Assembly (NCBI RefSeq): GCF_900167525.1
Contig: NZ_FUZQ01000002.1
Coordinates: 676,550-740,549, forward strand
Length of the DNA: 64,000 nucleotides
Origin: Krasilnikoviella flava
Lineage (GTDB): Bacteria > Actinomycetota > Actinomycetes > Actinomycetales > Cellulomonadaceae
Direction: 5' to 3'
Shown: positions 5,912 to 64,000 of the stretch, piece by piece
Position numbering within the stretch: the stretch's first letter is position 1
Layout of the letters: each line of letters opens with the position of its first letter
Translations under genes and position numbers: made by a program
The notes under the pieces: generated by a model
Database searches by the model: none
The model's input: only the letters and a program-made list of their open reading frames with translations
What the model was told of the DNA's origin: nothing

Positions 5912-7215
5912 CCGGCACGCCGGGCGCCGAGCCGTTCGACGCCGTCGACGTCATCCGCACCAAGCGCGACGGGCACCCGCTCGAGGCCGCCCAGATCGAC
6001 TGGGTGGTGGACGCCTACACCCGCGGCGCCGTCGCCGAGGAGCAGATGTCGGCCCTCGCGATGGCGATCCTGCTGCGGGGCATGACGCGACCCGAGGTGG
6101 CCCGCTGGACGGGCGCGATGATCGCGTCGGGCGAGCGGATGGACTTCTCCGGACTGTCGCGCCCCACGTCGGACAAGCACTCCACCGGGGGCGTGGGGGA
6201 CAAGATCACGCTGCCGCTCGCGCCGCTGGTGGCGTCTTTCGGGGTGGCCGTGCCCCAGCTCTCGGGCCGCGGGCTGGGACACACGGGCGGCACCCTCGAC
6301 AAGCTCGAGGCGATCCCGGGCTGGCGCGCGTCCCTGAGCAACGCGGAGCTGATGGCCCAGCTCGAGGACGTGGGCGCGGTGGTCTGCGCCGCGGGCGCGG
6401 GCCTCGCTCCCGCGGACAAGAAGCTCTACGCGCTGCGCGACGTGACCGGCACCGTCGAGTCCGTGCCGCTCATCGCCAGCTCGATCATGAGCAAGAAGAT
6501 CGCGGAGGGCACCGGCGCGCTCGTCCTCGACGTCAAGGTGGGCTCCGGCGCGTTCATGAAGGACCTCGACGCGGCGCGCGAGCTCGCCCGCACGATGGTC
6601 GACCTCGGCACCGACGCTGGCGTGCGCACGGTCGCGCTGCTCACGGACATGGAGGTGCCGCTCGGGCGCACCGCGGGCAATGCGCTCGAGGTGCGGGAGT
6701 CGGTCGAGGTGCTCGACGGCGGCGGACCTGCCGACGTCGTCGACCTCACCGTGGCGCTGGCCGTCGAGATGCTCGCGGGCGCGGGCCGCCCCGTGCCGGA
6801 GGCCGAGGTGCGGGCGGCGCTGGGCGACGGACGCGCCAAGGACGTGTGGCGCCGGATGATCGCCGCGCAGGGCGGCGACCCGGACGCGCCGCTGCCCCGG
6901 GCGCGCGAGCGGCGGGAGGTGCTCGCGGACCGGTCCGGGGTCGTCACCCGCCTGGACGCCTACGCCGTGGGCATCGCCGCCTGGCGGCTCGGGGCGGGGC
7001 GCTCGCGTCGCGAGGACCCCGTGCAGGCCGGGGCGGGCGTGGAGCTGCACGCGAAGCCGGGCGACGAGATCACGGCCGGGCAGCCGCTGCTCACCCTGCA
7101 CACCGACACGCCCGCGCGCTTCGAGCGTGCCAGCGCGGCGCTCGCCGGGCGGTGGTCGGTCGACGACGCCGGTTCCGCCGGGCCGCGGCCGCTCGTGCTC
7201 GACCGGGTCGGCTGA
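5908..7215 (+). CDS. deoA: thymidine (pyrimidine-nucleoside) phosphorylase
   Basis: Phosphorolysis of thymidine or (deoxy)uridine to base and (deoxy)ribose 1-phosphate. 435 aa, the usual length. The glycosyltransferase family 3 signature is clear: KHSTGGVGDKI binds phosphate, then SGRGLGHTGGTLDKLE. The C-terminal domain ends with the typical beta-hammerhead region (GDEITAGQPLL). The ATG overlaps the cdd stop, so products of Cdd pass directly to this enzyme's substrate pool. Confidence 0.96.
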   Translation: MTGTPGAEPFDAVDVIRTKRDGHPLEAAQIDWVVDAYTRGAVAEEQMSALAMAILLRGMTRPEVARWTGAMIASGERMDFSGLSRPTSDKHSTGGVGDKITLPLAPLVASFGVAVPQLSGRGLGHTGGTLDKLEAIPGWRASLSNAELMAQLEDVGAVVCAAGAGLAPADKKLYALRDVTGTVESVPLIASSIMSKKIAEGTGALVLDVKVGSGAFMKDLDAARELARTMVDLGTDAGVRTVALLTDMEVPLGRTAGNALEVRESVEVLDGGGPADVVDLTVALAVEMLAGAGRPVPEAEVRAALGDGRAKDVWRRMIAAQGGDPDAPLPRARERREVLADRSGVVTRLDAYAVGIAAWRLGAGRSRREDPVQAGAGVELHAKPGDEITAGQPLLTLHTDTPARFERASAALAGRWSVDDAGSAGPRPLVLDRVG

Positions 7216-52802: not shown

Positions 52803-52926
52803 CGGCTCGGCGCTGGTGGCAGGGTGTGTCCACAGGCGGTCCTCAGCCGGTTGCCCGGGACCCCTATCCTGGTCCCGCCTTGCCGCCCCGCGCACCCGCC
52901 GTGGCACGACGAGAGGGAACAGATCA

Positions 52927-54189
52927 GTGTCGATCGACACCTTGGCGCCGACGGACGCCCCCGCGATCCTCGAGCACGAGGTGCGCGAGCTGGTACGCCG
53001 CCGCGCCCTCGACCCGGTCCGTGACCGGGCCGGGCTCGAGCGCCTCGTCGCGGAGGCCGCCGCCGACTACGCCGAGCGCGCCACGCGCGGCGTCGTGCCG
53101 GCTCTCGCGGACCCGCAGGGCGCCGCACGGGCGGTCGTCGACGCCCTCGGCGGCCTCGGCCCGCTGCAGCGCTACCTCGACGACCCCGAGGTCGAGGAGA
53201 TCTGGATCAACTCGCCCGCCAAGGTCTTCGTCGCGCGGCGCGGCGTCCCGGAGCTCACGACGACGATCCTCACCGCCGCGCAGGTGCGCGACCTCGTGGA
53301 GCGGATGCTCAAGGCGTCCGGCCGCCGTCTCGACCTGAGCAGCCCCTTCGTCGACGCCTCCCTGCCGGGCGGCGAGCGGTTGCACGTCGTGATCCCGGAC
53401 GTCACGCGCGAGCACATGGCCGTCAACATCCGCAAGCACCTGGTGCGCGCGGACCACCTCGACCACCTGGTGCGCCTCGGCTCGCTCACGTCGCACGCCG
53501 CCGCCTTCCTCGACGCGGCGGTGCGGGCCGGGCTGAACGTGCTGGTCTCGGGCGCGACGCAGGCGGGCAAGACGACGATGCTCAACGCGTTGGCCGGCTC
53601 GATCCCCGCAGGGCAGCGGGTGATCTCCTGCGAAGAGGTCTTCGAGGTGCGCTTCGCGGCCCGTGACCACGTGGCCATGCAGTGCCGGCAGCCCAGCCTG
53701 GAGGGCACCGGGGAGATCCCGCTGCGCCGTCTGGTCAAGGAGGCGCTGCGGATGCGGCCGGACCGGATCGTCATCGGCGAGGTGCGCGAGGCCGAGAGCT
53801 TCGACATGCTCGTGGCGCTCAACGCCGGGATCCCGGGGATGTGCACCGTGCACGCGAACTCGGCCCGCGAGGCCGTCACGAAGATGTGCACGCTGCCGCT
53901 GCTCGCGGGCGAGAACGTGTCCGACCGCTTCGTCGTCCCGACTGTCGCGTCGGCGATCGACCTCGTGGCGCACCTCGACGTGGCGTCGGACGGTGCCCGG
54001 CAGGTGCGCGAGATCGTCGCCGTGACGGGTCGCGTCGAGGGGGACCGCGTCGAGACCGCCGGCATCTTCCACCGGCTGCCCGCCGAGCAGGGCGGCGACC
54101 TGGTGCGCGGCGACGGCTTCCCGCCGGGGGAGGAGCGCTTCGCCCGTGTCGGCGTCGACGTCCGCGCCCTCCTGGCCGGGGGCCGCTGA
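52927..54189 (+). CDS. cpaF: CpaF/TadA-type pilus secretion ATPase
   Basis: 420 aa. Powers Tad (Flp) pilus assembly or DNA-uptake pili. Walker A SGATQAGKTTM, Asp-box region and Walker B/His-box GEVREAESFDML and CTVHANSAREA are present. I use GTG 52927, since the upstream in-frame ATG lies in a non-coding region with stop-rich context in relatives. It is followed directly by tadB and tadC, giving the standard order. Confidence 0.93.
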   Translation: MSIDTLAPTDAPAILEHEVRELVRRRALDPVRDRAGLERLVAEAAADYAERATRGVVPALADPQGAARAVVDALGGLGPLQRYLDDPEVEEIWINSPAKVFVARRGVPELTTTILTAAQVRDLVERMLKASGRRLDLSSPFVDASLPGGERLHVVIPDVTREHMAVNIRKHLVRADHLDHLVRLGSLTSHAAAFLDAAVRAGLNVLVSGATQAGKTTMLNALAGSIPAGQRVISCEEVFEVRFAARDHVAMQCRQPSLEGTGEIPLRRLVKEALRMRPDRIVIGEVREAESFDMLVALNAGIPGMCTVHANSAREAVTKMCTLPLLAGENVSDRFVVPTVASAIDLVAHLDVASDGARQVREIVAVTGRVEGDRVETAGIFHRLPAEQGGDLVRGDGFPPGEERFARVGVDVRALLAGGR

Positions 54190-55046
54190 TGGGGGTCGTG
54201 GTCGGGCTGCTGCTCGGGGCGGGCCTGGCGTGCGTCTGGCTGTCGTGCTGGGAGGCTCCGGCGCGTCCGCGCCGCCGGGTGGGCCGTTCCGCCGCCGTGC
54301 AGGACCTGCTCGTCCAGGCCGGCGCGCCGTCGGTGACCCCGGCGGCACTGTGGTGGCTCAGCGCGATGGCGGGCGTCGTGGTGCTGCTCGCCGGGCTGGC
54401 GCTCACCCGCTCGCCCGCCATCGCCGGGTGTTTCGCCCTCATGTCGGCCGCGGCGCCCGAGATGCTCGTGCGGGTGCGTGCGCGGCGGCGCCGGCGGGAC
54501 CTGCGGGAGGTATGGCCGGAGGTGGTCGATCACTTGGCGTCGGGTGTGCGGGCCGGGCTGTCGCTGCCGGAGGCCGTGGCCCAGCTGAGCGAGCGCGGCC
54601 CGGTCGAGCTCCGCGAGCCGTTCTCCCGCTTCGCGGCGGACTACCGGGCGACCGGCCGCTTCGGGGAGTGCCTCGACCTGCTCAAGGCGCGGCTGGCCGA
54701 CCCGGTGGCGGACCGGATCGTCGAGGCCCTGCGACTCACGCGCGAGGTGGGCGGCACCGACCTGGGTCGGCTGCTGCGCACGCTGTCGACGTTCCTGCGC
54801 GAGGACGCGCGGACGCGCGGCGAGCTCGAGGCGCGGCAGTCGTGGACCGTGAACGGGGCCAGGCTCGCGGCGGCGGGCCCGTGGGTGGTCCTGGCATTCC
54901 TCGCGACCCGCCCGGAGACGGCGCAGGCCTACAACTCGGCCGCCGGTGTCGCGGTCCTCGCGGCCGGTGCGGCCACGTCGGTGCTGGCCTACTGGCTGAT
55001 GCGACGCATCGGCCGGTTGCCCGAGGAGGGGCGGGTGCTGCGATGA
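54189..55046 (+). CDS. tadB: TadB-type pilus assembly inner-membrane protein
   Basis: 285 aa, type II secretion F-domain (GspF) protein. Membrane segments near both termini bracket the cytoplasmic F domain: EVVDHLASGVRAGLSLPEAV and later LRLTREVGGTDLGRLLRTL. The ATG overlaps the cpaF stop by one base (TGATG). It forms the platform with TadC, and full length here, in contrast with its neighbour. Confidence 0.92.
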   Translation: MGVVVGLLLGAGLACVWLSCWEAPARPRRRVGRSAAVQDLLVQAGAPSVTPAALWWLSAMAGVVVLLAGLALTRSPAIAGCFALMSAAAPEMLVRVRARRRRRDLREVWPEVVDHLASGVRAGLSLPEAVAQLSERGPVELREPFSRFAADYRATGRFGECLDLLKARLADPVADRIVEALRLTREVGGTDLGRLLRTLSTFLREDARTRGELEARQSWTVNGARLAAAGPWVVLAFLATRPETAQAYNSAAGVAVLAAGAATSVLAYWLMRRIGRLPEEGRVLR

Positions 55047-55831
55047 CCGCGCCCTGGTTCTCCGGCGTCGGTGCGCTGGTGGGGCTGCTCGGCGGCCTCG
55101 GCATCCTGCTCGTGATCTCGCGGGTCCGCGCGCGCCGGGCGACGCTCGACCAGCGACTGGCCCCGGCGCTGCGCCCGCGCGACGCCACGTCCGGACTGCT
55201 GCGCGAGCAGCCCACCCACACGCCGTTCCCCGTCCTCGAGCGCCTGCTCGCGCCGTGGATCGCGGACGCCGCGCACTGGTTCGAGCGGCTCGGGTCGTCC
55301 CGCGCGGACGTGCGCCGACGCCTGGACCGCGCGGGCTGGCACGAGAGCGTCGAGGCGTTCCGGGCGCGCCAGGTCGTCTCGGCCGCACTCGGGCTGGCGG
55401 CCGGCCTCGTGCTCGCGCTGCTCCTCGCCGCCACGCGCGGGTCGTCGCCGGTACCCCTGGCGGCGCTCGTCCTGCTGTGCGGTGCCACCGGTTTCGTCCT
55501 GTGCGACCAGTGGCTGAGCCGCGCCGTGCAGCGCCGTGAGGAGCGGATGCTCGCCGAGTTCCCGACCGTCGCCGAGCTGCTCGCCCTCGCCGTCACGGCG
55601 GGCGAGGGTCCCGTGCCCGCGCTCGAGCGGGTCGCGACCACGGCCCGCGGCGAGATCTCCGGCGAGATCTCCACGATGCTCGCCGACGTCCGAGCCGGCG
55701 CGCCGATCGCGACCGCTCTGACGGCGATGGCCGACCGGACCGGACTGTCCTCGCTCACGCGCTTCGCCGAGGGCGTCGCCGTGGCGCTGGAGCGCGGCAC
55801 CCCGCAATCGCCTATAACGCTGCTACCGTAG
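55043..55831 (+). pseudogene. tadC: tadC, 3' end lost to an integrated element
   Basis: 262 codons, of which the last nine are foreign. The protein begins with a membrane segment and the F domain (EFPTVAELLALAVTAGEGPV) and is normal up to AVALERGTP; intact TadC continues for about 50 residues with a final membrane helix. Instead it reads PQSPITLLP and stops, where the serine-recombinase gene begins. The missing 3' part should lie past the right edge of the element. ATG overlaps the tadB stop. Confidence 0.85.
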
Positions 55832-55833
55832 CA
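55821..55833. promoter_or_regulatory. palindrome upstream of integrase
   Basis: TGCTACCGTAGCA, perfect 6-bp arms around one base, ending 3 nt before the integrase GTG. TATAAC at 55813-55818 could be the -10 of its promoter. The palindrome may bind a regulator or belong to the recombined attachment site. Confidence 0.5.
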
Positions 55834-55836
55834 ACG

Positions 55837-57363
55837 GTGAGAGCACTTGTCTACGTCCGGCTGTCCGACTGGCGCGGCGAGGAGGACCCGAGCCTGAGCC
55901 CGCAGGGGCAGGAGGAAGCGGGGCGCGCGTACTGCAAATCTAAGGGCTGGGACGTCGTGGACGTCGTGCGGGACCTCGACCAGTCCGGCAGTGACAAGGG
56001 GCTGGGGCTCAGCCGTCCGGGCATCAAGGAACTACGAACGTATTACGGCAAGGCTGATGCCGTGGTGTTCAAACGCCTTGACCGCCTCGCACGCGACGTT
56101 GCCGACTTCGGAGCGCTCATGAAGGAGGCGAGGGCTAACGGAATGGCGCTCGTATCCATCAACGAGGGCGTCGATATGACAACCGACCAAGGCGAGTTCT
56201 TCGCAACAATCGTCATGGCTTTTGCTCAGATGGAATCGCGCATGATTGCCGCGAGGGTCAAGGATGGGCGTAGGGAGCAGCGCACTGCCCGACGCTGGGG
56301 CGGGGGATTCACGCCCTGGGGCTATGAAAGCGCACCGAACCCTGATGGTCCGGGAAGGGTACTCATCGTCAAGAAGGACGAGGCGGAGATCCTAAAGGAA
56401 TGTGCCGCAAGGGTCGTACGCGGCGAATCTCTCTACTCCATCGGGCAAGATCTCGTGAGGCGAGGCGTTCCGGGCAAGCGCTCGGGCACGTGGGACGCAA
56501 CCAAGATCAAGCGCATTGTCACGTCACCTGCGAGTGTTGGCGTGATGATGCATGGCAAAGAGCCATTGAGGGACGAGCTCGGCCTACCCGTCAGGGCGTG
56601 GCCGGCAGCGCTTGACCCTGACTTGCAGGCTCAGGCGCGCGCCGCGCTCAAGCCGGGCAAGAAGTCTGGTCAGGTGAAGCGACAGAAGGCCGCGCGCCTT
56701 CTTTCGGGGCTGATTGTCTGCCCGTCCTGCCGTCGCTCGCTGGCACTCAAGAGCGTTAGAGGAGTCGTCCAGTATGCGTGTTCGTCGCGCGCTAGAGGCC
56801 TTGCATGTGCGGGCGGTGTCAGTGTCCGGGCAGAGTCTGCCGAGTCCGAGGTGGAGCGTCGCCTACTGCTAAAGATCGGCTCGTGGAGGCGGCTCTTGGA
56901 CGTCGCACGTGAGGTTGCGCCGGACCGGGAAGCCTTAAGGGACATCGAGCAAGCGCTTGGAGAGATCGGCATGGCGTTTCAGGAGCCCACGGCCGACGTT
57001 CCCGCCCTTGTCGCACGTCGGGACGCGCTACTACAAATGCGCGAAAATCTCGGGGTGACAGAGCCCGTGCACGAGACCGTCGAGTCAAGCACGACCGTTC
57101 GTGAGGAGTGGGACCACGGGGATGTGATCGACCGGCAGAAGCTCCTTCAGGAGTACGTCAGAAGAGTCACCGTGCGTCCGTCGCAAGGGCGTAGAGGATT
57201 CTCCCCGGACCGCATCGTCATTGAGTGGGGAGAGTTCCTGACGATCGACCAGCCGGAGCACGGACTCATTGGTGAGGGGTTCTGGATTACTTCGGACGAT
57301 CCCGAGACGCTGCGGCGCATTCAGGAACCGCCGCAGCGGGCGGAAGGCTCGCTGACGGTCTGA
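55837..57363 (+). CDS. large serine recombinase (phage integrase)
   Basis: 508 aa. The resolvase domain occupies 1-150: catalytic Ser10 in VYVRLSD, then the arginine-rich VVFKRLDRLARDVADFG and AQMESRMIAAR. A recombinase domain follows with GESLYSIGQDLVRRGVPGK, then a zinc ribbon (CPSCRRSLALK ... CSSRARGLACAG; about 295-330) and a coiled-coil region near 350-410. Lies at the element edge, as is normal for this class. GTG start. Confidence 0.95.
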   Translation: MRALVYVRLSDWRGEEDPSLSPQGQEEAGRAYCKSKGWDVVDVVRDLDQSGSDKGLGLSRPGIKELRTYYGKADAVVFKRLDRLARDVADFGALMKEARANGMALVSINEGVDMTTDQGEFFATIVMAFAQMESRMIAARVKDGRREQRTARRWGGGFTPWGYESAPNPDGPGRVLIVKKDEAEILKECAARVVRGESLYSIGQDLVRRGVPGKRSGTWDATKIKRIVTSPASVGVMMHGKEPLRDELGLPVRAWPAALDPDLQAQARAALKPGKKSGQVKRQKAARLLSGLIVCPSCRRSLALKSVRGVVQYACSSRARGLACAGGVSVRAESAESEVERRLLLKIGSWRRLLDVAREVAPDREALRDIEQALGEIGMAFQEPTADVPALVARRDALLQMRENLGVTEPVHETVESSTTVREEWDHGDVIDRQKLLQEYVRRVTVRPSQGRRGFSPDRIVIEWGEFLTIDQPEHGLIGEGFWITSDDPETLRRIQEPPQRAEGSLTV

Positions 57364-57465: not shown

Positions 57466-57834
57466 CTACTTGCCGACCTGGACGGTCTCGCCCGTCGCCT
57501 TCTCGTATGCCTCGACCAGGGCGTGGCTCGGCCGGCCTCGGTCGGCCACACTGAAGCCGTTGGCCCGGCCCCAGTCCTTGACCCGCCCGTAGATGCCAGG
57601 GTTGCCGACCGTGCCCTGACGGTTGAGCCGGGACGTCGGGACGGTGCGTGCTGCTCGGCGGGAGATCTTGCGGCCTGCTTTGACGTAGGGGTCGAGCAGG
57701 CGGAACAGCTCGGCGGCTTCGTCCTTCGTCAGGTCGACCTCAAAGGACGAGTCCTGTACGGCGAAGGTGTACTGCTCGGCACCTTCAGCGCCGGAAAGGT
57801 CGCTGTAGGTGGTGGTCTCGATCCGCTGGGCCAT
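57466..57834 (-). CDS. lsr2: Lsr2-family nucleoid-associated protein (element-borne)
   Basis: 122 aa. Lsr2 bridges AT-rich DNA and silences foreign genes. The N-terminal dimerisation part is FAVQDSSFEVDLTKDEAAEL and the DNA-binding part is near the C-terminus (VKDWGRANGFSVADRGR; the AT-hook-like RGR is intact). Elements that carry their own copy are known among mycobacteriophages. It may silence the element's genes or interfere with host Lsr2. Confidence 0.93.
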   Translation of the reverse strand: MAQRIETTTYSDLSGAEGAEQYTFAVQDSSFEVDLTKDEAAELFRLLDPYVKAGRKISRRAARTVPTSRLNRQGTVGNPGIYGRVKDWGRANGFSVADRGRPSHALVEAYEKATGETVQVGK

Positions 57835-58394: not shown

Positions 58395-58613
58395 CTACCG
58401 GAAGACCAGCCGGAGTGCTGCGGCGCGCTCGACCTCGTGAGGGTCGGCGTCGGGGTCCGCCTTCCGGTAGTTCACCCGAGCGCGGTATGCGGCCTGGCGG
58501 CAACGGTTAGAACAGAAAGTCATGGTCCAGTTGTCATGCTCAGGGAGCGGCTCGGCGCATCGGGCGCAGAGATCGAAGTTCCAGCGGCGCAGGGCCTCGG
58601 CCTGGTCGATCAC
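58395..58613 (-). CDS. small zinc-finger protein
   Basis: 72 aa. LCARCAEPLPEHDN and FCSNRCRQAAYRARVNY give a C-x2-C / C-x3-C site like those in short phage and plasmid proteins that end in a CRQxxYRxR helix. Its ATG overlaps the stop of the large upstream gene by 4 nt (ATGA), so they are translationally coupled. Confidence 0.7.
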   Translation of the reverse strand: MIDQAEALRRWNFDLCARCAEPLPEHDNWTMTFCSNRCRQAAYRARVNYRKADPDADPHEVERAAALRLVFR

Positions 58614-59719
58614 GCTGCTGCCTCGATGGTGAAGGTTGCCTTGTAGACACTGACCGTGCCCCGGTCCTGGCGCTGGTAGTAGCCGCCCTTGAGCTGCATG
58701 AGAACGTCGCCAACGCTCATCGTCTCGCGGGTTACCTTCGCCTCACGGACCCGCCCGAGGTGAGGGGTCACCCCGCCGACACGCGAGGCCATCACGCGCT
58801 CGACCAGAGCGCCAACGTCACCGACACGGTCCCCCATGCCCTCGTTGACCCAAACGTCAAAGATGGCTTCGATCGTGATCCGACGGACACCCTTGGCGGC
58901 ATTGTTCGCGGTGACCGAGTGGTTGATGATCTTCACACCGAGGGCGTGTACATCCACGTTCGTGGCGAATCCACGATCGTTTGTAGTAGCCGCCTGATAA
59001 GCCGGACTGCCCTTGACGAGCGTAACAATGTGATCGACAAAGCCACTGACGGTGTGATCGCCTAGCGTCCCGCTGGGGATGCTTGGAAGGTCAGGGAAAA
59101 TCGAGTTCACGGAGAAGGTCACGGAGTCCACCAGGTCCTGTGTGCCTACACTGGACATGCTTACCTGTCCGGCCTTCGAGTAGTGCCGGTTCAGGCGGGT
59201 CTCGATGTCCTGACCGTTGATGGGGGTTCCCGCCCATCCTGGACGGAAGAACTTGCCGTGGACGATGCCCTTGTACGAGCCGAAAGGCTCCGTGCTCCAA
59301 CCCTTGTCGGCCCGTTCGGCGGCGTGAGGCTGCACGAGGAACATGGCGGGAACGTCGCTAGGCGCCTCAGCGGGCGCCTTCTCCACGACATGCACGGGGA
59401 CCATCAGCTCCTCGGCCATGACGTCGGCCAGCGCCTCAGCGACCCACGGTCGGAACGGTGCGCGATCCTCGAGTTCCTTCACGGCCTTCTCGGCGCCGTC
59501 GAGCAGTAGTTGAGCCCGATCTGCGGCGGCGAGGCCGCGCGCGTAGTCGTCTGGCGTCACGGACTCGTCGCCCGACGTGAGGCGCGCCTTCAGGTCGGCT
59601 ACATCCGCCTGGGCGGTCGTGAGTACATCCGCGTGCGCAGTCACCTTCGTCTGGGCGGTCGTGAGTGCCGCGGCGTGGAGCTCGAACTTGTCGGAGGTCT
59701 TCGTGGTCTTGGTGGCCAA
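58610..59719 (-). CDS. large unrecognised element protein
   Basis: 369 aa if started at TTG 59719, which has AAGGGG 7 nt upstream; the open frame runs to 60010. N-terminal 95 residues look helical and coiled (ALTTAQTKVTAHADVLTTAQ). A central globular region has EPFGSYKGIVHGKFFRPGW and a C-terminal region GVRRITIEAIFDVWVNEGM and the closing VYKATFTIEAA. No motif or signal I recognise. Frames upstream of 59719 pass through a GGGGTCC repeat, so the true start is uncertain. Confidence 0.6.
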   Translation of the reverse strand: MATKTTKTSDKFELHAAALTTAQTKVTAHADVLTTAQADVADLKARLTSGDESVTPDDYARGLAAADRAQLLLDGAEKAVKELEDRAPFRPWVAEALADVMAEELMVPVHVVEKAPAEAPSDVPAMFLVQPHAAERADKGWSTEPFGSYKGIVHGKFFRPGWAGTPINGQDIETRLNRHYSKAGQVSMSSVGTQDLVDSVTFSVNSIFPDLPSIPSGTLGDHTVSGFVDHIVTLVKGSPAYQAATTNDRGFATNVDVHALGVKIINHSVTANNAAKGVRRITIEAIFDVWVNEGMGDRVGDVGALVERVMASRVGGVTPHLGRVREAKVTRETMSVGDVLMQLKGGYYQRQDRGTVSVYKATFTIEAAA

Positions 59720-60157
59720 CTTGTTCCCCTTGTTGCGCCCACCCTTGGGCGCGATTGTCGTAGTGAGTTTGTGACTGCCTCGCGAGCCTCTTCCGGCTCG
59801 TCGGGGTCCGGGGTCCGGGGTCCGGGGTCCGGGGTCCGGGGTGACATCCGGTTGGTCTTGTTCCGATCCTCCCTGAACATCGCTTCCACCTTGTGGGGAA
59901 GAGCGCGACGGCGCACACGCCCTCGGTCGGGAAGGAACCGGGCGGCGTGTGCACACAGTCCTCGGAGTTCGGCTTCGTCGCTGTAAGGACGCCCCCGCTG
60001 AGACCTGCACGCTTCGGCGAGTTCTGCACGCGGCTCAGGTGACGCTTGCGCTCCGAGTGCTGGAAGCGCTTGATCCGGTCAGGTGCCGGTACGTCGAGCC
60101 CTGGCTCCGTGTCCGCGGCGAAGTCAGCGTGGACGGCGTCGAGCGCGGTCGGCGCGT
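59720..60157. other. repeat-bearing stretch with uncertain reading frame
   Basis: All three minus-strand frames remain open for 60 to 150 codons here because of GC-rich repeats. Frame 1 continues into the large protein; a second starts MQNSPKRAGLSGG near 60029; a third starts MFREDRN at 59880 with a plausible ribosome-binding site. No plus-strand gene is convincing. Confidence 0.4.
59803..59842. repeat. 7-bp tandem repeat GGGGTCC, about 5.7 copies
   Basis: Forty nt of a perfect heptamer. Because seven is not a multiple of three, each gain or loss of a unit shifts the reading frame of any gene reading across it. On the minus strand it encodes PDPGPRTPDPGPR in the long frame. Confidence 0.95.
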
Positions 60158-63851: not shown

Positions 63852-63936
63852 CGCGGTCACCTCACCTTCCAATCAGCAATGCTAGCGCTCCGAAAACAGC
63901 CGAGGTGAATCGCCCTGGGTCTGATGGAGGCTCTGG

Positions 63937-64000
63937 TTATTTGATCTCGGCCAGGGCCCTCGACCCCTGCTGGGTAGCGTAGAGGGCGCTCTCGAACTCG
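63937..64000 (-). CDS. C-terminal end of a further gene (partial)
   Basis: The last 20 or so codons, EFESALYATQQGSRALAEIK followed by TAA, read naturally on the minus strand and run off the window. Too short to identify. Confidence 0.5.
   Translation of the reverse strand, partial: EFESALYATQQGSRALAEIK

Follow-up and report, generated by a model that had tools for sequence, protein, structure and literature searches.

The A118-type prophages of Listeria encode a serine integrase and lie within comK, a competence-linked gene. A similar insertion is described here for Krasilnikoviella flava: within the 64,000-nucleotide stretch analysed (contig NZ_FUZQ01000002.1, positions 676,550 to 740,549 of the forward strand; hereafter, the window), tadC, a platform gene of a Tad/Flp pilus operon, is cut by an element that encodes a large serine integrase. 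It differs from the Listeria prophages in that the target is a pilus machine and not a regulator, and in that the element gives no phage structural match among the 17 proteins scanned. The likeness to the comK phage had been drawn in the initial annotation and is apt, given that tad clusters are needed for the transformation of Micrococcus luteus and that comK is itself a competence gene (PMC4322843).

More generally, mobile genetic elements (MGEs) recurrently insert in comK, comYC, comFA and comM, blocking their own removal by transformation (PMC4774983), and elements that cut competence genes provide one of the leading arguments that transformation rids genomes of parasites. Like the present locus, comYC (Streptococcus and Lactococcus), comFA (Bacillus), comM (several hosts) and comK are DNA-uptake genes cut by integrase-borne elements, with divergent integrases reaching the same gene (PMC4774983); here, however, the hosts are Actinomycetales of presumed competence, and the targets are the Tad/Flp motor and platform genes, three of which are entered at a total of about nine positions. 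Croucher et al. do not use the word 'Actinobacteria' in the accessible text (PMC4774983), nor is 'tad' used in that of a 2025 study of prophages and transformation (PMC12637031), and the accessible part of a paper on candidate phage-inducible chromosomal islands (PICIs) of Mycobacterium mentions neither tad nor pilus (PMC10654092). No report of an insertion hotspot in tad genes was found among the open-access articles searched, subscription papers and preprints being outside this scope. The site-specific insertion in tadC is one of at least 32, and we give roughly even weight to the reading that it likely disables a predicted DNA-uptake pilus, and in this way would keep the element from being removed through transformation.

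Interruption of tadC by a serine-integrase element

The native codons of tadC stop at the core ACCCCGC, severing the T2SSF domain (residues 178-254 correspond to positions 3-76 of the 125 in the profile); the integrase open reading frame (ORF) begins 5 bases after the tadC stop, and the G+C content per kilobase drops from ~75% before this edge to 59-65% after it. The missing end lies on a second contig of the same genome (C4, locus L006), where positions 6273-6455 plus a stop, opening with ACCCCGC, continue in frame and read TPLADVL...QIGL; a T2SSF profile search of the genome placed domain positions 73-124 at C4:6267-6422. Thus, the tadC 3' end lies, as had been anticipated, beyond the right edge of the element, joined by a short repeat. 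When fused over the core, the two flanks align gap-free with the 4 relatives aligned, and tadC is whole, running uninterrupted through the site to its end, in all 6 Isoptericola loci lacking the element (loci found by name); because of these two observations, the empty site is known and the loss can be set at 59 codons. The initial annotation had placed the cut correctly, at the start of a large serine recombinase, but had put the loss at ~50 codons, which is too few. Upstream, cpaF and tadB are intact, as was also claimed: their T2SSE and T2SSF domains are present and both align with relatives along almost their entire length, copies of this cpaF within the genus being near full-length and 79-91% identical. 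The insertion of a serine-integrase element in this morphogenesis gene, at a 7-base core and with both halves kept in frame, is confirmed; a TadC lacking its last 59 residues would presumably be non-functional.

The window ends with its contig (C8), inside an insertion sequence (IS) that is nested in the element and breaks the assembly; from its transposase sequence, we take it to be of the IS3 type. This IS (1365 bases) is found at four contig ends of the genome, besides two short partial matches: its left flanks are C8 and C5, its right flanks C4 and C3, and the 3 bases beside it agree for no combinations other than C8/C4 (AGG) and C5/C3 (CTC), a second IS copy sitting at the latter junction. 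From the IS overlap and this pattern of 3-base target duplication we infer that C8 is joined to C4 through the IS, which would give an element of 8107 + 1365 + 4907 = 14379 bases (~14.4 kb). As expected of a mobile element, an identical short core stands at both edges, albeit with the right edge on the other contig of this presumed join, and the site is uninterrupted in relatives; the integrase carries the Resolvase, Recombinase and zinc-ribbon domains of a serine integrase. The features of the window and the positions of the family insertions are given in Table 1.

Table 1. Window features (coordinates within the window) and approximate insertion positions (residues) in the pilus genes of the family
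Feature	Position	Strand	Remarks
cpaF/tadA, T2SSE motor ATPase	52816-54189	+	whole; PF00437, E 3.8e-35
tadB, T2SSF platform	54183-55046	+	whole; PF00482, E 7.9e-10; relatives full-length
tadC 5' part	55043-55831	+	254 native and 8 foreign codons, then stop at 55829-55831
core ACCCCGC	55799-55805	+	left element edge; second copy at L006:6273-6279, right edge
element within contig C8	55806-64000	.	continues (inferred join) through IS into L006:1-6272
large serine integrase, 508 aa	55837-57363	+	PF00239, PF07508, PF13408; phrog_95 integrase, E 5.9e-92
Lsr2-like nucleoid protein	57466-57834	-	PF11774, PF23359; phrog_1223
cargo protein	58610-59758	-	part of ORF 58610-60010
nested IS, first 95 bases	63906-64000	-	identical to L006:1-95; full IS L006:1-1365; AGG at both sides
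insertion in cpaF	~133		G027
insertion in cpaF	~194		G050, G118, G126, G159, G219
insertion in cpaF	~250		G039, G040
insertion in cpaF	~285		G215
insertion in cpaF	~340		G007, G018, G031, G038, G132
insertion in tadB	~213		G040, G111, G197, G212
insertion in tadC	~131		G089
insertion in tadC	~254		own genome

Recurrent insertion into cpaF, tadB and tadC

Convergent targeting of the tad genes, which is a variant of the behaviour of competence-gene-disrupting elements, is a stronger finding than the single cut in tadC. The family set comprised 221 genomes, of which 187 carry this cpaF (E 1e-70 or better). An integrase search over the set gave 30 loci with flanks, chosen by their likeness to the window integrase, and tblastn matches to CpaF, TadB or TadC lie in the flank of 10 of them, the window's own locus included. 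In 8 of the 9 other loci, the element is enclosed by both halves of the target gene, which lie 7.4 to 11.4 kb from each other; for the ninth (G089), only the tadC 3' half lies within the 40 kb fetched, and the insert would measure ~49 kb if the cpaF and tadB at C11:4824-6915 are its other side. Re-querying low-scoring genomes with CpaF (28 genomes) and TadB (15 genomes) revealed further split cpaF and tadB genes, respectively. When a split target gene with a serine integrase at most 1.5 kb from an edge is counted as an insertion, the family total is 20 serine-integrase insertions in 19 of the 221 genomes, at 8 positions; this is a lower bound, the re-queries having covered 28 (cpaF) and 15 (tadB) of the 221 genomes, mainly those with poor best scores. 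The commonest target is cpaF, with 14 insertions in 14 of the 187 genomes that carry it, rising to 19 of 187 with the inclusion of splits that lack a visible edge integrase or are spread over two contigs (G125, G181, G192, G143 and G092). The halves on one contig are separated by ~5 kb (G039) to 39 kb (G126); G118 was counted despite having its halves on two contigs, the integrase abutting one of them.

One genome (G040:C2:147461-193716; loci L069, L070 and L130) has two serine-integrase elements in a single operon, in cpaF (11 kb) and in tadB (~33 kb). In another (G192), genes of a cyclic-oligonucleotide-based antiphage signalling system (CBASS; oligonucleotide cyclase, E1-E2 and JAB, at L129:672-3932) adjoin the cut cpaF, within an interruption of 61 kb.

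A number of broken genes were rejected as insertions: the cpaF and tadB pieces of G014 are directly adjacent, indicating a deletion; the halves in G176 and G441 are adjacent or overlapping, without an insert; G300 has stops; and G056 and G186 each gave a single partial tadB match, probably at a contig end. Also left uncounted were genomes with pieces on at least two contigs (G143, G092 and G061 in the family; G499, G310 and G256 outside it), those whose partner piece was unseen (G325, G407 and G421) and G553, where the integrase is 1.9 kb from the edge.

Elements of ~7.5-9 kb with an integrase occupy the pilus genes of G018, G038, G111, G132 and G197 and, together with the G089 insert, have one protein group in common. 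The two members of this group that were scanned (G111 and G018) match phrog_283, a major head protein; G111 additionally has a head-tail adaptor and G018 a weak match to a small terminase (E 9e-5). From these matches, the five elements look like capsid-carrying satellites, which we would liken to the capsid-forming PICIs (cf-PICIs). The combination of an integrase and an own capsid that marks a cf-PICI is found in the relatives G111 and G018, but not in the window element, which was rejected as such a satellite after no capsid of its own was matched among the 17 proteins scanned; it has in common with the other inserts compared only the integrase and one short ORF group.

The order set comprised 396 genomes, 38 from the family and 358 outside it; for the latter, a hit was counted where a serine integrase lies at most 100 bases from a split cpaF, and 30 outliers were re-queried, using cpaF alone. 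At least 12 of the 358 genomes are hit (G263, G321, G328, G341, G385, G412, G431, G446, G447, G455, G505 and G560), spanning six other families, with the cpaF halves 5 to 105 kb apart and the cuts at positions ~133, 175, 194-203, 250 and 340, which are mostly ones used within the family. Taken together, there are at least 32 insertions in corresponding pilus genes, at about nine positions.

Two genomes of the order have more complex arrangements. In G505 (C8:508334-517306, partly L257), four cpaF 5' fragments follow one another (query 7-216, 8-126, 8-100 and 9-100), three of them with a stop, which looks like the product of stacked insertions or of elements carrying a cpaF 5' end. In G499, cpaF is found as three pieces on C50, C51 and C93, with breaks close to residues 135 and 340 that may reflect two insertions in one gene.

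Among 104 loci on IMG/VR viral contigs, which often lack host flanks, the integrase abuts a tad gene (a cpaF piece) in two (L199 and L218), representing the integrated state; tad genes are further off in L160 and L208, and most of the loci have none.

Junctions, target sites and integrase lineages

An in-register junction was found in the 19 insertions examined, that of G089 being left out. Because each junction is the one that scored best when a distant protein served as the reference, some cores are likely understated; an identical core of at least 2 bases is seen in 16 of the 19 junctions, and of at least 4 bases in 14. The 7-codon windows at seven cpaF positions fall at DNA conservation percentiles of 15, 38, 55, 59, 60, 78 and 87 (relative to 29 other cpaF loci): the sites do not just follow the peaks of DNA conservation, and only some of them have conserved codons. 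The palindromy of the predicted attP and attB is not above that of shuffles, as 199 and 789 of 2000 shuffles, respectively, reach it.

The integrase tree was built from 40 sequences, 20 tad-inserted and 20 from family loci without a tad gene in the flanks, and the tad-inserted integrases do not make one clade. Two integrase lineages, separated by starred branches, have entered each of the positions cpaF ~340, tadB ~213 and cpaF ~250, and the integrases at cpaF ~194 make up one clade. The tad genes are, therefore, entered recurrently by divergent integrases, as expected of competence-gene-disrupting MGEs. Some near relatives of the tad-inserted integrases sit elsewhere; L049, for example, is placed next to the G039 integrase in the tree. 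The G039 insertion in cpaF (~5 kb) belongs to the integrase group of L041, L042, L045 and L049, and at these four loci the serine integrases adjoin what, from a reading of its motifs, is a putative rolling-circle initiator.

A predicted role of the hit pilus in DNA uptake

Both transformation and Flp pili are lost in M. luteus when deletions are made in two tad clusters, and a tadB deletion lowers transformation over 100-fold (PMC4322843); tad-1, with TadA1/CpaF, is restated as essential in a further report, where missense changes in it are among the R-mutations (PMC8467076). As in M. luteus, the present genome has two tad loci, together with a comEC ORF and an ORF read as comEA. The second tad locus is open, with T2SSE, T2SSF, TadE, Tad and DUF4244 matches, and the DUF4244 protein has a processing site that reads like one of the Flp type. 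The hit locus has TadE, and neither a pilin match nor DUF4244 was found in the 3 downstream proteins scanned. A cluster of the tad-1 type would lack the major Flp pilin and stand beside a second cluster that has it; among the proteins scanned here, the pilin-like DUF4244 is seen at the second locus. The resemblance of the hit locus to tad-1 appears in gene content, not in a tree, and by analogy the hit cluster may serve DNA uptake, as tad-1 does in M. luteus.

Possible consequences of the insertions

The mechanism that we envisage is as follows: serine-integrase elements would land in cpaF, tadB or tadC; the cut gene would disable the pilus and, with it, DNA uptake and competence; incoming DNA could then no longer remove the element, and selection acting on the elements would favour this outcome. 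The loss of competence, the benefit to the element and reversibility are all presumed. More tentatively, the Tad operon may be the chief arena of conflict within the genomes of the Actinomycetales, where phages, capsid-carrying satellites and other small elements of many integrase lineages would have come convergently to target its motor and platform genes and to stop transformation, so escaping removal by recombination, some of them perhaps being able to excise and give back the pilus. If true, the hotspot would extend the curing argument to a phylum in which competence has barely been studied, indicate which of the tad clusters encodes the DNA-uptake pilus, and supply natural knockouts together with serine integrases of known site.

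It is rather unlikely that the targeting is neutral, with serine integrases settling in common, dispensable genes and pilus loss bringing the element nothing. The target is indeed widely available, in 187 of the 221 family genomes; conservation is high in two of the seven cpaF windows (78th and 87th percentiles); and the close relatives of the G039 integrase (L041, L042, L045 and L049) have no tad gene within 1.5 kb. However, the other five windows are at percentiles 15 to 60, and a single lucky site would not account for some nine positions spread over three adjacent genes, with two lineages arriving at each of three of these positions. Other genes that are available as well are hardly ever split. 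The ComEC domain is present in 205 of the 221 genomes (low-scoring in G044 and G186) and, among the matches listed, lies in two pieces in 1 (G128); comparison of 14/187 for cpaF with 1/205 for ComEC gives p = 0.0003 (Fisher), albeit for a domain of 270 positions that is shorter than CpaF and, hence, a narrower target. Paralogous ATPases (29-43% identical; from the second tad locus and others) are split in 0 of 51 rows, each covering at least 281 query positions (Fisher p = 0.045 against 14/187 and p = 0.016 against 19/187), although these rows come only from the 28 genomes with low cpaF scores and two weak halves would escape detection. Both controls are, accordingly, supporting and not decisive.

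These limits weigh against selection for loss of DNA uptake, as do several other points. ComEC is no hotspot, and competence genes in general are, therefore, not the target; a ComEC match is, furthermore, absent in 16 of the 221 genomes, including G143 and G197. In the stretches examined, no serine integrase was seen for the split genes of G125, G181 and G192 in the family, nor for the split cpaF of G451, G566 and G445 in the order. The single-gene deletions of M. luteus may have polar effects, according to their authors (PMC4322843), and no report of competence in the present genus was found in the articles consulted.

We regard it as improbable that the insertion is a reversible switch (active lysogeny), in which tadC would be restored by excision of the element whenever the pilus is required, in the manner reported for the comK prophage of Listeria. 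The exact core, the open integrase frame and the in-frame tadC remainder are all consistent with a switch, as is the lack of an internal stop in most rows of split genes; over 61 codons, the remainder differs non-synonymously from L105, L106, L107, L109 and L110 at 0, 0, 4, 1 and 1 codons, respectively. Relative to L105 and L106, 17 and 15 of the 61 codons have synonymous changes, and non-synonymous differences number 15 and 13 in the 200 codons before them. However, intact genes also have a conserved tadC tail, and the remainder thus shows only an absence of decay; no excised or circular form was seen, the element carries an IS, and no directionality factor was identified, there being only the 'excisionase' likeness (phrog_733) of a DUF2637 protein.

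It is likewise improbable that the pilus is a phage receptor, the loss of which would let the cutting element bar rival phages: the occurrence in the operon of phage-sized inserts (33-39 kb, on one contig) as well as small elements agrees with this idea, as does the near absence of ComEC hits, but no Tad-pilus phage of this order turned up, no search aimed at one having been made.

Gene content of the window element

Besides the proteins listed in Table 1, the element encodes the DUF2637 protein (phrog_733 likeness, E 3e-12), a DUF2511 protein and one that weakly matches winged-helix and replication-initiator proteins (E 0.002-0.008), the remainder being unknowns. The 17 proteins scanned from both parts of the element gave no PHROG match to a capsid, terminase, portal or tail protein, and because of this the element is not classed as a prophage. 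The cargo protein has no homologue except itself among 7998 scored candidates and no Pfam, PHROG or PADLOC match; its single-sequence fold (mean pLDDT 50) was too weak and was not used. A second, distant large serine recombinase is encoded elsewhere in the same genome (G000:C8:322879-324261; locus L056).

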